A DNA stretch of 64,000 nucleotides, from NCBI RefSeq assembly GCF_000626715.1, contig NZ_AQRA01000001.1, positions 372,001 to 436,000 of the forward strand. Reading direction: 5' to 3'. The DNA comes from Aquimarina atlantica. GTDB taxonomy: Bacteria > Bacteroidota > Bacteroidia > Flavobacteriales > Flavobacteriaceae. The notes under the pieces were generated by a model, which saw nothing but the letters and a program-made list of their open reading frames with translations, was not told the origin of the DNA and did no database searches. The translations under genes and the position numbers were made by a program. How positions within the stretch are numbered: the stretch's first letter is position 1; each line of letters begins with the position of its first letter. This document shows, in pieces, positions 11,071 to 64,000 of this stretch.

Positions 11071-11484
11071 CTATTGATCTATAAAAAGAGCGTTGAGTTC
11101 TGGAGTTGGAATCATACAACTTTCTTTTTTACCAAACCATTTATACCTGTTTTTGGCAATAATATCATAAATCCAATCTCTAAAGAATCTAGGTAAAATA
11201 AGAAAAACCGAAAGTAAGGGATATATACCAGAAAGTTGTTTTGCAATATGCAGAGCAGCCGTAGATTTATAGTAGTAAGCAATATCAGGTTCGATCAATA
11301 ATATAGAGTCTAATTTTTTAGGGTCTATATTTCGCTCTGCGATTAATCTTTTGCCAATTTTACTTTGTAATGGGGCATAGCGAAATACATCATTTTTATC
11401 TCGTTTAATAGTAAATAAAACCGCACTGTTGCATAAGTTGCAAACACCATCAAATAATATGATTTTTTTTCCATCTTCAATCAT
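11071..11484 (-). CDS. DCC-family thiol-disulfide oxidoreductase-like protein (DUF393)
   Basis: The 137-residue protein starts with the family signature LFDGVCNLCN, containing the CxxC-like DxxCxxC pattern, and later has FRYAPLQSKIGKRL and a YYYKSTAALHIAKQL stretch, all characteristic of DUF393. Members are small thioredoxin-related proteins of unproven substrate. The ATG at 11484 is used, so the conserved motif begins ten residues in; an upstream ATG at 11523 would add an implausible 13-residue extension. Confidence 0.85.
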   Translation of the reverse strand: MIEDGKKIILFDGVCNLCNSAVLFTIKRDKNDVFRYAPLQSKIGKRLIAERNIDPKKLDSILLIEPDIAYYYKSTAALHIAKQLSGIYPLLSVFLILPRFFRDWIYDIIAKNRYKWFGKKESCMIPTPELNALFIDQ

Positions 11485-11541
11485 AATACAAAGATAACAG
11501 GAATATATATTATTAATAATCAATTATCAATATATTAAGAA

Positions 11542-12357
11542 TCATTTAGCGATTACAGAATCAATAACCTGTTGTGTAGTAATCTGAAGGTTTTTAGGAA
11601 GTTTATTATCTTTTGGTAAAACAGCAAGATAACGATCATTATTAGAATCATAGACTTGCTTGAAAACCGGATCATCTAATTGCAAAGCATCACAAATTTC
11701 TTTTATTAAATCGAGATGATAAATAAGATCAGTACTTCCAAGATGAAAAACTCCTTTCTTACTGCGATTAATGATATAATGTATTTGTTGTGTTAATTTA
11801 GATATCGAAGTTGCATTAATAATAACATTTGGAAAAACTTCTATAGGTGCTCTAAGATCATGCAGAGTTTTAAGCTCTTGTACTCTGGGAGTAGTAGAAC
11901 CAAAAACCATAGGTACCCGAGCTATTACATATTTATGAGAAGGTAACCGCATTAGTGCATTTTCAATTTTGATTTTGAATCTACCAAAAACGCTATCACT
12001 AAGGGTTTTATCATATTCGTATGATGGGTAATTGCTAAAAGAATCAAATACATTAGCACTTGAGATAAAAACAAGTCGGCATTTATGTTTTTGAATCCAC
12101 TGTATGATACGTTGATGTGCATCTAATTGTGAATTAAAGTTACCTCTAAGAGCAGTAATAATAGTAGTAGGCTTAAGATTGTCTAATAAAATAGAGATAT
12201 CTTCCAGTTCCATGTCATACTGAAAAAACTTTTGATTTTTTTCAAAAAAGGGATTATCTGTATGATATGTACCGTAAGTATCAAAATAAGAATTAAGCTC
12301 TTTATATAAAGCATTTCCTATAAAACCACTGGCTCCTATGATTAAAACTTTCTTCAA
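11542..12357 (-). CDS. NAD-dependent epimerase / sugar-nucleotide reductase-like SDR
   Basis: A 271-residue extended short-chain dehydrogenase. The N-terminal Rossmann motif is GASGFIG; the catalytic Ser lies in VFISSANVF and the Tyr-x3-Lys in YEYDK. It resembles RmlD-type dTDP-4-dehydrorhamnose reductases and other sugar-nucleotide reductases. No sugar pathway genes sit nearby, so the substrate is not inferred. It lies downstream of gcvT but is separated from it by a strong terminator. Confidence 0.8.
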   Translation of the reverse strand: MKKVLIIGASGFIGNALYKELNSYFDTYGTYHTDNPFFEKNQKFFQYDMELEDISILLDNLKPTTIITALRGNFNSQLDAHQRIIQWIQKHKCRLVFISSANVFDSFSNYPSYEYDKTLSDSVFGRFKIKIENALMRLPSHKYVIARVPMVFGSTTPRVQELKTLHDLRAPIEVFPNVIINATSISKLTQQIHYIINRSKKGVFHLGSTDLIYHLDLIKEICDALQLDDPVFKQVYDSNNDRYLAVLPKDNKLPKNLQITTQQVIDSVIAK

Positions 12358-54615: not shown

Positions 54616-55026
54616 ATGTCAGACCCTATAAAGAATGACAAACTTATTAAACAATATGATCTTGAGTTAGGTAAAGTTTTTTTCTATGAAAATTATTTGA
54701 TCATTGAAGTGGCAGAAGGTGTTTGTTTTGATTACCAAAAAGCAAAAACATTATCTCTGTTAACCAATTTACATTTTGGTGATCGCTCTTTTGGTTATAT
54801 CTCTCATAGAATAAATTCATACTCACTAGAAGCTACAGATTATATGAAAATAAAGGATGTGTTTCCGAATATAAAAGCTTTTGCTGCAGTTACGTACAAC
54901 GAATCTCAGAAGACAAGTATAAGAATAGAAAATATGTTTTATCAAGAAGGTATTGTGTCTTTCGAAAATATTAAAGATGCAATTAAGTGGGTTATAGAAA
55001 AACTAAAAAACGACTCTAACACCTAA
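54616..55026 (+). CDS. Conserved cytoplasmic protein, SpoIIAA/STAS-like size and pattern
   Basis: A 136-residue soluble protein. The alternation of strands and helices (LELGKVFFYENYLIIEVAEG; AKTLSLLTNLHFGDRSFGYI; IKAFAAVTYNESQKTS; a C-terminal IKDAIKWVIEKL helix) resembles STAS-like proteins common in Flavobacteriia, but no defining motif is seen. It converges on the ArsR gene at 55047. Confidence 0.65.
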   Translation: MSDPIKNDKLIKQYDLELGKVFFYENYLIIEVAEGVCFDYQKAKTLSLLTNLHFGDRSFGYISHRINSYSLEATDYMKIKDVFPNIKAFAAVTYNESQKTSIRIENMFYQEGIVSFENIKDAIKWVIEKLKNDSNT

Positions 55027-55868: not shown

Positions 55869-55951
55869 TTATAAAGGCAAACCATCATTATATCATTCAT
55901 ATTTATAGAAAAACAATTGTCTAATTATTAAAAATAGAATATTTTGTGTGT

Positions 55952-56797
55952 ATGGAAAGTATAATTAATTATTTTGAAACGATACCATCATCTCACCGTA
56001 GTTTAATTTTGGTAGGAGGGATTACTTTTTTCTGGCTTATAGAATATGCTATGCCTTTGTTTAAATTTAATTATAAAAAGTTTAAACATGCATGGCCTAA
56101 CATATTTTTTACACTAACAACTATAATTATCAATTTTGTATTGGCTTTTATATTACTTAAAACCAGTGATTGGACGGTAGCTAATCAATTTGGAGTGTTG
56201 CAATGGTTAGCATTACCGTTATGGGTTACAATAATCCTAGGTATTGCCTTACTTGATCTAATAGGGGCTTGGTTGGCACATTATGTTCAACATATCGTAA
56301 AACCGTTATGGATGTTTCATCTTATACATCATACCGATAATCATGTAGATACCACAACAGCTAATAGACACCATCCGGGAGAAAGTGTTATTCGATTTTT
56401 GTTTACCACTCTGGCCGTATTTATTGTAGGAGCACCTATAGGTATAATTATGTTATACCAATCTTTATCTGTAGTATTATCTCAATTTAATCATGCCAAT
56501 ATATCTCTACCAAAAAAAGTAGATGATATGATAAGCTGGATAATAGTTTCTCCAGATATGCATAAAGTACATCATCATTATGTATTGCCGTATACAGATA
56601 CAAATTATGGTAATATCTTTTCTATTTGGGATAGAATTTTTGGCACTTTTGCCAAAATACGAAATGAAGACTTGATATATGGGGTAGATACCTATCCAGA
56701 TGTGGATTCAAATGCAAATGTGGGTAAATTATTAAAACTTCCTTTTTCAGGATATCGCGCACCAACTGGTGCAAAGTTTGAATCCGAAAAATCGTAA
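55952..56797 (+). CDS. Sterol desaturase / fatty-acid hydroxylase family membrane protein
   Basis: A 281-residue integral membrane di-iron enzyme. The histidine clusters HYVQH, HLIHHTDNHVD and HKVHHHY are present, between four hydrophobic spans. The family hydroxylates or desaturates lipids and carotenoids; the substrate is not inferable. The ATG at 55952 is preferred over a GTG six bases earlier. Confidence 0.88.
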   Translation: MESIINYFETIPSSHRSLILVGGITFFWLIEYAMPLFKFNYKKFKHAWPNIFFTLTTIIINFVLAFILLKTSDWTVANQFGVLQWLALPLWVTIILGIALLDLIGAWLAHYVQHIVKPLWMFHLIHHTDNHVDTTTANRHHPGESVIRFLFTTLAVFIVGAPIGIIMLYQSLSVVLSQFNHANISLPKKVDDMISWIIVSPDMHKVHHHYVLPYTDTNYGNIFSIWDRIFGTFAKIRNEDLIYGVDTYPDVDSNANVGKLLKLPFSGYRAPTGAKFESEKS

Positions 56798-62743: not shown

Positions 62744-63151
62744 ATGAAAATTAATCAAAGAGTGGGAAGAGGGGCAGTAAGATTATCGATTCCAGCAAAA
62801 GTTGCATATGATGCAAAAGCCTTTCAGAATAGTATTTATGAGCTGTTAGATGAATTGGGATGTCCAAAATGTTTTTCTGGTGTAGACTGCTATTTTCAAA
62901 CGATTAGAGATTATGTTTTAGACCCAAGAGAAAATGTAGTTTCACGATCACTGGCTTTTAGAGATTCTTCTCCACAACCTAGTAAACTATTAGCAACAAA
63001 AACTCTAAATGTTGGGGTATCTCCGGCAGTATCATATGATATTGGTAAGATTGATGAGGCTATAAAAAGTATTTTTGAAGAAATAGGGTGCCTGGCATGT
63101 TGTTCGGGAAATGATATCTTCTTTCAAAACCAGTTTGATTTTAATTTTTAA
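62744..63151 (+). CDS. Duplicated Cys-containing protein, candidate MNIO substrate (RiPP precursor)
   Basis: A 135-residue protein with no signal peptide. It consists of two copies of one unit (about residues 12-52 and 88-128). Each has a strand with P-A-x-V-x-Y-D, an amphipathic helix (SIYELLDELG; SIFEEIG) and a Cys motif ending the unit: GCPKCFSGVDCYFQ at 39-52 and GCLACCSGNDIFFQ at 115-128. The shared pattern is GCxxCxSGxDxxFQ. The spacer is low in Cys. The gene lies 8 nt before a DUF692/MNIO gene, so the Cys residues are probably what that oxygenase modifies. No family recognised; coding is well supported by the duplication. Confidence 0.78.
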   Translation: MKINQRVGRGAVRLSIPAKVAYDAKAFQNSIYELLDELGCPKCFSGVDCYFQTIRDYVLDPRENVVSRSLAFRDSSPQPSKLLATKTLNVGVSPAVSYDIGKIDEAIKSIFEEIGCLACCSGNDIFFQNQFDFNF

Positions 63152-63159
63152 AACAAATC

Positions 63160-64000
63160 ATGGGTGTACTTAAAAAAACGCTAGAATTAGAATGCCTACC
63201 ACAATTAGGGGTAGGCATTATTTACTCGCCTACAGTCGCCAAAATTAATTTCCCTAAGGGGTTAATTGATACTTTTGAAATAGAACCCCAAACACTGTGC
63301 ATTAGAGACGAAAATGACAATTTGAAGGTACCGACAGAAGTTTTTGAAGAAATAAGCGAATTACCATATCATAAACTGGTGCATAGTATAGGGGCGCCTG
63401 TAGGAGGAAGCTTACTACCCAAAAATGACCAGTTGGCATTAATTAGATATGCAACGGCTCTTTTCGATAGTCCGTGGGTAACAGAACATCTTAGTTTTAA
63501 TGCCACTACAGAATTTAACACTGGTTTTTTTCTTCCACCTTGTCAAACAGAAAAAGGGTTAGAATTAGTCATACGAAATATAAAGTATCTTCAAGATAAA
63601 ATAGGAAAACCAATTGCTATTGAAACCGGAGTAAATTACCTAAAACCCAATAGTCATGAAATGAATGATGGAAGATTTGTCGCAGAATTGTGTAAAGAAA
63701 CTGGATGTGGAGTATTATTAGACATTCATAATATTTTTGCCAACCAGTTAAATGGTCGTCAAAGCATCACAGATTTCTTAAAAGAAATACCATTAGAACA
63801 TGTGATAGAAATGCATATTGCAGGAGGGACAGAATTAAATAATTTATGGATGGATTCTCATTCTGGACCTATAGATAAAAGGTTACTAGCTATAACAAAA
63901 GAAATTTTACCAGATCTTACTAATTTAAAAGCTGTTACTTATGAAATATTTGATTCTTATATTCCTGTAGTAGGTGATACCCTTATTATTTCTGAAATGG
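63160..64000 (+). CDS. DUF692/MNIO family multinuclear iron oxygenase (partial, runs off the window)
   Basis: The first 280 codons are open to the end of the window. The MNIO TIM-barrel motifs are seen in order: VHSIGAPVGG (His75), WVTEHLSF (His110), GFFLPPC, IETGVNYL (Glu155), LLDIHNIFAN (Asp189, Asn191), EMHIAGG (Glu217, His219), DSHSGPI (Asp232, His234) and VTYEIFDSY (Glu262). These are the metal-binding positions of the family that includes MbnB, TglH and ChrH, which modify Cys residues of ribosomal peptides. It starts with ATG at 63160, 8 nt after the putative substrate gene. The C-terminus and any partner gene lie outside the window. Confidence 0.88.
   Translation, partial: MGVLKKTLELECLPQLGVGIIYSPTVAKINFPKGLIDTFEIEPQTLCIRDENDNLKVPTEVFEEISELPYHKLVHSIGAPVGGSLLPKNDQLALIRYATALFDSPWVTEHLSFNATTEFNTGFFLPPCQTEKGLELVIRNIKYLQDKIGKPIAIETGVNYLKPNSHEMNDGRFVAELCKETGCGVLLDIHNIFANQLNGRQSITDFLKEIPLEHVIEMHIAGGTELNNLWMDSHSGPIDKRLLAITKEILPDLTNLKAVTYEIFDSYIPVVGDTLIISEM

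Follow-up and report, generated by a model that had tools for sequence, protein, structure and literature searches.

The window (the 64,000-nt stretch of Aquimarina atlantica DNA analyzed here, positions 372,001-436,000 of contig NZ_AQRA01000001.1) ends with a gene for a small cysteine-bearing protein followed by a gene for an MNIO enzyme (Table 1). The two ORFs are separated by 8 nt, and the sequence C-x-x-C-x-S-G is present in each of the two related units of the small protein. Both motifs quoted in the initial annotation, GCPKCFSGVDCYFQ and GCLACCSGNDIFFQ, were recovered, as was the MNIO gene immediately downstream. The small protein had also been described as duplicated, and this was confirmed by our analysis: its two halves aligned to each other with a Smith-Waterman score of 77, a value reached by none of 5000 shuffles (shuffle maximum of 48), which indicates that the duplication is not due to chance.

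Table 1. Position of the small protein, its two units and the MNIO gene.
Feature	Position	Strand	Basis
Substrate-like small protein, 135 aa, 6 Cys, two tandem units of ~46 aa	62744..63151	+	ORF, self-alignment
Unit 1, small-protein residues 12-57, motif GCPKCFSGVDCYFQ	62777..62914	+	Self-alignment of halves, alignments A1 and A3
Unit 2, small-protein residues 88-133, motif GCLACCSGNDIFFQ (CxxCC; CLACC)	63005..63142	+	Self-alignment, alignments A1 and A3
MNIO (DUF692, PF05114) gene, codons 1-280 of 484 in the window	63160..64000	+	Pfam, NCBIfam
Complete MNIO gene, 484 aa	L002:2161-3615		Continues beyond the window end

The search of the small protein against Pfam returned nothing above cut-off (best: PF12229, 14.4 of 22.1 bits), and no match was found in NCBIfam or the PDB. 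We attribute to chance the PF12229 match, the scattered weak database matches of a set of 20 small-protein sequences and a profile match to PDB entry 9l08 (E = 0.0098), for which no single stretch passes alone. The start of the protein is not strongly hydrophobic: judged by hydropathy, the highest N-terminal 12-aa value is 0.91 for the window protein, 1.01 and 1.42 for two relatives, and 2.12 and 2.21 for two controls. The full-length alignment comprises seven sequences, the other six being 77-99% identical to the first, and structure prediction from six sequences (94-99% identical to the first) yielded a low-confidence model (pLDDT of 43.5). Omega ranged from 0.04 to 0.17 for four pairs of small proteins with CxxC and from 0.08 to 0.12 for three MNIO pairs, three of all twelve pairs being saturated and giving no value. 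In the pairs that gave values, the small protein is thus under purifying selection similar to that acting on the MNIO.

Residues 36-285 of the MNIO match PF05114 with 145 bits (cut-off of 25), and the same family was matched at E up to 0.1 in all 12 of its fused relatives (i.e., those sharing the apparent domain fusion discussed below). Residues H75, E109-H110, E155, D188-x-H190, H219, D232-x-H234 and E262, which we take to be the iron ligands, are invariant in alignment A4 (12 sequences, window enzyme included), and the likely iron-ligand motifs are all located inside the window, in line with the initial identification of a DUF692/MNIO gene with all its metal-ligand motifs. By this domain match, the window enzyme is a member of the MNIO superfamily (PF05114), predicted to use two or three irons for the O2-dependent oxidation of a peptide. 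Among the NCBIfam models for MNIOs, BufB scored best (122.5 bits), followed by HvfB, ApyH, ChrH and MbnB, and all scores were far below the equivalog cut-offs (310 bits for BufB; 61 vs. 600 bits for the ChrH model NF050165). A tree of 49 MNIO domains placed the 13 from fused enzymes in a single group on a long branch (support 100/100), apart from the bufferin-type/BufB enzymes, and four ChrH-like MNIOs formed a separate clade (100/99); the deeper placement of the fused group is unsure, since long branches meet there. Structure prediction of the fused MNIO (five sequences) was likewise of low confidence, with a pLDDT of 35.1.

At 484 aa, the full MNIO is longer than the barrel-only MNIO models (~260-280 aa). 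About 190 residues follow the barrel, with a DUF2063-like region starting at about residue 295. PF09836 (DUF2063) scored 18.7 bits on this extension, below the cut-off of 27.2, and with a limit of E = 0.1 it was matched in only two of the 12 fused relatives; the HvfC model matched the window extension with E = 0.0021 and likewise two of the 12 fused relatives (best E = 2.5e-4). We then compared the extension by hhalign to a profile built from seven BufC/DUF2063 partner proteins encoded at six bufferin-type or similar plasmid loci. The match spans 87 columns with a score of 27.5 (E = 0.0034, with a probability of only 9.5%), vs. at most 17.0 for 60 column-shuffled decoys and 13.3 for reversed ones. 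The same comparison with the C-terminal part of ChrH-like enzymes gave no match (E = 0.56; score of 10.8, vs. up to 18.3 among 60 shuffled decoys). We read the extension as a candidate fused DUF2063-like partner domain, the homology being remote. The initial annotation had anticipated a separate DUF2063-like partner gene; because of this resemblance, the partner that is absent as a separate gene is probably fused onto the MNIO instead.

We searched for relatives of the pair in other genomes. An MNIO 93-97% identical to that of the window is present in five named loci, four of them from Aquimarina and the fifth from a Bacteroidia MAG, and the small protein is paired with the MNIO in all five. 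Using the MNIO as query against 395 genomes of the phylum, 23 were matched at E up to 1e-10 and in only three did the match extend past residue 300: the window's own genome, G534 and G688. Among 322 matching records of a plasmid collection, a single one of the best 40 covers 80% of the MNIO query; the top two matches, which span both domains, are separate adjacent bufferin-type genes and were rejected as fusions.

With a profile limited to the Aquimarina units, no convincing relative was recovered from the remaining 394 genomes in the order sample. Single-unit relatives (70-79 aa) are nevertheless found elsewhere in Bacteroidota, just 5' of the fused MNIO: proteins of 70 and 79 aa lie upstream of it in G534 and G688. 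When these single units were included in the profile (A3), strong matches (E up to 1e-20) were confined to the three of the 395 genomes that contain the full-length fused MNIO. At E up to 1e-4, A3 matches were found in two of the 181 genomes of G534's family, one of the 128 genomes of G688's order and 13 of the 149 genomes of G534's genus (hereafter, the second genus). The latter matches occupy 19 places, with 11 copies containing C-x-x-C-x-S-G ('a') and eight lacking the CxxC with the rest of the unit kept ('b'; one of them retains a single Cys), these labels reflecting the motif rather than a tree. CxxCxSG was present in every aligned unit with CxxC and CPxCGxG in none. The single-unit protein of G688 had no match in the plasmid collection at E up to 1. 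Weak matches were dropped before counting, namely those in three genomes of the order sample found with the Aquimarina-unit profile (one of these loci, L015, is a 27-aa match with two internal stops) and those in 12 genomes of the phylum found with A3 (E of 9e-4 to 0.01), so that weaker true relatives may have been lost.

The CxxC protein and the fused MNIO are found in the same genomes. Within 91 genomes searched, the small protein was detected in six of 52 Aquimarina genomes and the fused MNIO in the same six, and three further Aquimarina genomes contain other MNIO types only. Likewise, 11 of the 149 genomes of the second genus possess 'a' copies and the same 11 possess the fused MNIO, which is split across two contigs in G1149 and decayed in G1134 (an 87% complete draft), where about the first 100 residues are left, with an in-frame stop. 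This co-occurrence covers three genus-level lineages of one phylum; beyond the phylum, the search covered the plasmid collection only. All copies with CxxC adjoin a fused MNIO (18/18: six in Aquimarina, one in G688 and 11 in the second genus, one of these MNIOs being decayed) vs. four of the eight CxxC-less copies (P = 0.005; Fisher test), a P value that is descriptive only since the copies are related. Hence, occurrence without a DUF692 neighbor, which the initial annotation had named as an observation that would count against its reading if widespread, was restricted among the copies found to these CxxC-less ones. The accompanying proposal that the upstream protein is the substrate and carries modified Cys gains support from the linkage in 6/6 Aquimarina and 11/11 second-genus genomes, with the modification itself being predicted.

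The CxxC-less copies are located inside the MNIO cluster in G534, G1058, G1149 and G1091, away from the MNIO in G1048 and G1093, and, for the last two, in genomes from which the fused MNIO is absent: G893 (without any MNIO match) and G1112 (another MNIO type only). That four of them share a cluster with the MNIO suggests that the family has some Cys-independent role. The G893 copy stands alone between genes that, by eye, encode an acetyltransferase and an oxidoreductase of the FAD type, flanks resembling those of G534. Of the copies L061:10342-10605 and L063:9237-9455, one adjoins the fused MNIO and the other belongs to a genome without any MNIO match. In two genomes, a CxxC-less copy lies downstream of a gene whose product starts with MDESKIIIYQTEDGNTRIE (L088:62-1060 and L093:67-1059), presumably a RhuM-type-like protein; this pairing may mark a mobile context. 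We also observed in the second genus that the conserved start of the MNIO is not ATG but CTG in L118, L119, L120 and L122 and TTG in L121; an in-frame TTG three codons upstream of the CTG may be the start in L118 and L120.

The wider neighborhood of the pair varies between lineages. The initial annotation had looked to the region past position 64,000 for partner genes: downstream of the pair, the window genome does carry ABC genes as well as one for an M14 peptidase, but they are not kept in G021, G534 and G688. A divergent aldehyde dehydrogenase gene and the downstream M14 peptidase gene are conserved in close relatives and absent from the pair in these three genomes, and a functional link of the pair to the M14 peptidase or to the aldehyde dehydrogenase/DUF779 genes was consequently rejected. 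Based on inspection of the ORF lists by eye, no transporter, peptidase or DoxX gene is kept with the pair across lineages. In a RiPP in the strict sense, a leader would be removed and the modified core released or exported. No separate partner gene was found beside the pair and no sigma factor is kept with it; a sigma-70-like ORF lies downstream of the pair in G688, in convergent orientation (by eye). The window locus presented neither a Pfam match to a DUF2282/Buf2 precursor nor a separate PME-type 1 gene. The cassette consists of two genes. In G021, a desaturase/hydroxylase-like gene adjoins the pair (L064:10428-11279, 11453-11896; by eye). The window contains a close relative of this gene, with a similar neighbor, ~6 kb 5' of its own pair (54616-55026, 55946-56797; by eye); a relocation of the cassette inside a single region is possible.

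The locus had been presented as unreported, which is probably not the case. In the survey of Antoine et al. (2025; PMC12452194), adjamnio-IV comprises 10 sequences of 119-146 aa with 5-6 Cys and the motif CxxCC; it belongs to the set without predicted signal peptides, its gene order is given as 'Adjamnio-IV - MNIO' and no partner gene is listed. The window protein falls within these ranges (135 aa, 6 Cys, CLACC) and the window pair has the same order, precursor then MNIO, without a partner gene. It is therefore likely, judging from length, Cys content, motif and gene order as described there, that the family of the window protein is adjamnio-IV; the single-unit relatives of 70-79 aa fall outside its length range. 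Adjamnio-7 of the same survey, represented by a Novilysobacter protein, is by its description likewise a signal-peptide-less precursor with CxxC. The name 'adjamnio' was found in PMC12452194 alone, and no study of this small-protein family was among the literature matches listed. Relative to the sections of PMC12452194 considered here, in which the text on adjamnio-IV mentions no fused partner domain, single-unit relatives or CxxC-less copies and no passage concerns an MNIO-DUF2063 fusion, these three features appear to be new.

Added domains on MNIOs are not in themselves a novelty. PMC12452194 describes MovX as an MNIO with a winged helix-turn-helix, whose added domain may do the work of the partner, as its authors suggest, and also names MNIO|nitroreductase fusions; ChrH carries a C-terminal bundle (PMC12636315). 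By description, MovX and the nitroreductase fusions resemble the window enzyme in their extra domain but differ in what this domain is.

Our results suggest that the locus is probably a two-gene cassette for MNIO-dependent post-translational modification, with the upstream small protein as the putative substrate. This reading follows from the linkage of the CxxC protein and the fused MNIO, which are present or absent together. MNIOs usually bind their substrate via a partner, and most known cases oxidize Cys (PMC12452194; PMC12636315). Here, the fused DUF2063-like domain would hold a unit of the small protein and present its CxxC to the iron centre, which would use O2 for a four-electron oxidation of one or more Cys per CxxC, with the second Cys as the likeliest target. 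The expected shift would be about -4 Da per site and about -8 Da for the two-unit protein. Since neither a protease nor an exporter accompanies the pair and the small protein has no signal-peptide-like start, the product is probably retained intracellularly; it would be a modified intracellular protein, with the binding of a metal (copper) as its most likely use. The predicted product is either a Cys-Cys cross-linked heterocycle of the ChrH kind or a thiooxazole/oxazolone-thioamide, and the sequence cannot decide between these two. The formation of a thiooxazole is a four-electron oxidation too, and mass alone will thus not separate the two. More speculatively, and rather doubtfully, the MNIO, instead of making a secreted peptide, might put a permanent Cys-derived group in a folded cytosolic protein, which would make the pair a self-contained cofactor system with a fused partner, a two-site duplicate in Aquimarina and unmodified CxxC-less siblings serving another role.

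Conversion of each Cys into a 5-thiooxazole or oxazolone-thioamide would make the small protein a metallophore that buffers copper, as do bufferins (BufABC) and oxazolins (HvfABC). This is a possibility that we regard as reasonable without favoring it. These systems also have an upstream Cys-bearing substrate and a DUF2063-like partner, which the C-terminal domain of the window enzyme resembles, BufB is the nearest NCBIfam model to its barrel, and copper binding has been reported for both (PMC12452194). However, the partner is apparently fused in the window, the small protein lacks a strongly hydrophobic, signal-peptide-like start, no DoxX or separate partner gene adjoins the pair and no sigma factor accompanies it; the fused MNIOs form their own distant, long-branch clade apart from BufB, with a score well below the cut-off of that model. 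The other chemistry, in which the two Cys of CPxC would yield one cross-linked heterocycle as proposed for ChrH/DybH, appears somewhat less plausible and we consider it tentative. ChrH acts on CPACGMG, with a chemistry proposed to begin at the second Cys (PMC10214503), and its relatives yield an unmethylated -4 Da product (PMC12636315). The CPxC of our family resembles the CPxCGxG of ChrA/DybA, and the chryseobasin-type subfamily also includes minimal clusters of precursor and MNIO, a C-terminal bundle of helices on the MNIO and substrates >30 kDa (PMC12636315; PMC10214503). In contrast, the window motif is internal and reads CxxCxSG, the Pro is missing from unit 2 in Aquimarina (CLACC), the ChrH model scores far below its cut-off, ChrH-like enzymes form a separate clade and the C-terminal domains present no detectable similarity.

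It is also conceivable, but unlikely, that the small protein is a metal (iron) donor, a regulator or a subunit of the MNIO, with a CxxC that would coordinate iron or zinc without ever undergoing covalent modification. By the standards of a precursor, the protein is large and conserved, and the family includes CxxC-less copies, some of them adjoining the MNIO. Yet the MNIO already carries a partner-like extension, the presence of CxxC tracks that of the MNIO, and the position of the small-protein gene is that of the substrate gene in bufferin clusters, which is strictly 5' of the MNIO gene (PMC12452194). Finally, the variable wider surroundings could suggest chance neighbors with no functional link, but the shared gene order and short spacing across three genera, together with joint presence in 6/6 and 11/11 genomes, make this highly improbable. 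Overall, the interpretation of the locus as a real and functionally coupled cassette of an MNIO and its predicted substrate, probably already catalogued by name, is well supported.

If the family is adjamnio-IV, a row of a survey table becomes a testable two-gene system. Its single fused enzyme needs no partner gene, which is convenient for reconstitution, and the single- and double-unit substrates together with the natural CxxC-less copies constitute built-in controls. Such a system could tell whether MNIOs mature proteins that are not exported and what determines the outcome at CxxC motifs.

Our searches also recovered other MNIO loci. In another Aquimarina genome, a 194-aa protein with 13 Cys (L076:891-1472) is encoded directly 5' of a BufB-like MNIO; its size and Cys count fit adjamnio-I as described in PMC12452194, and similar proteins precede MNIOs in L024-L026, L028, L029 and L042. 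A 66-aa protein ending in CPACGMG (L039:1052-1249), located where a ChrH-like MNIO gene starts, corresponds to the DybA-type, lipoprotein-like kind of precursor described in PMC12636315. Lastly, the E. coli conjugative plasmid NZ_CP021938.1 contains a complete bufferin-type set (L073:3445-5948), composed of DUF2282, DUF692, a DNA-binding/DUF2063-type partner and DoxX.
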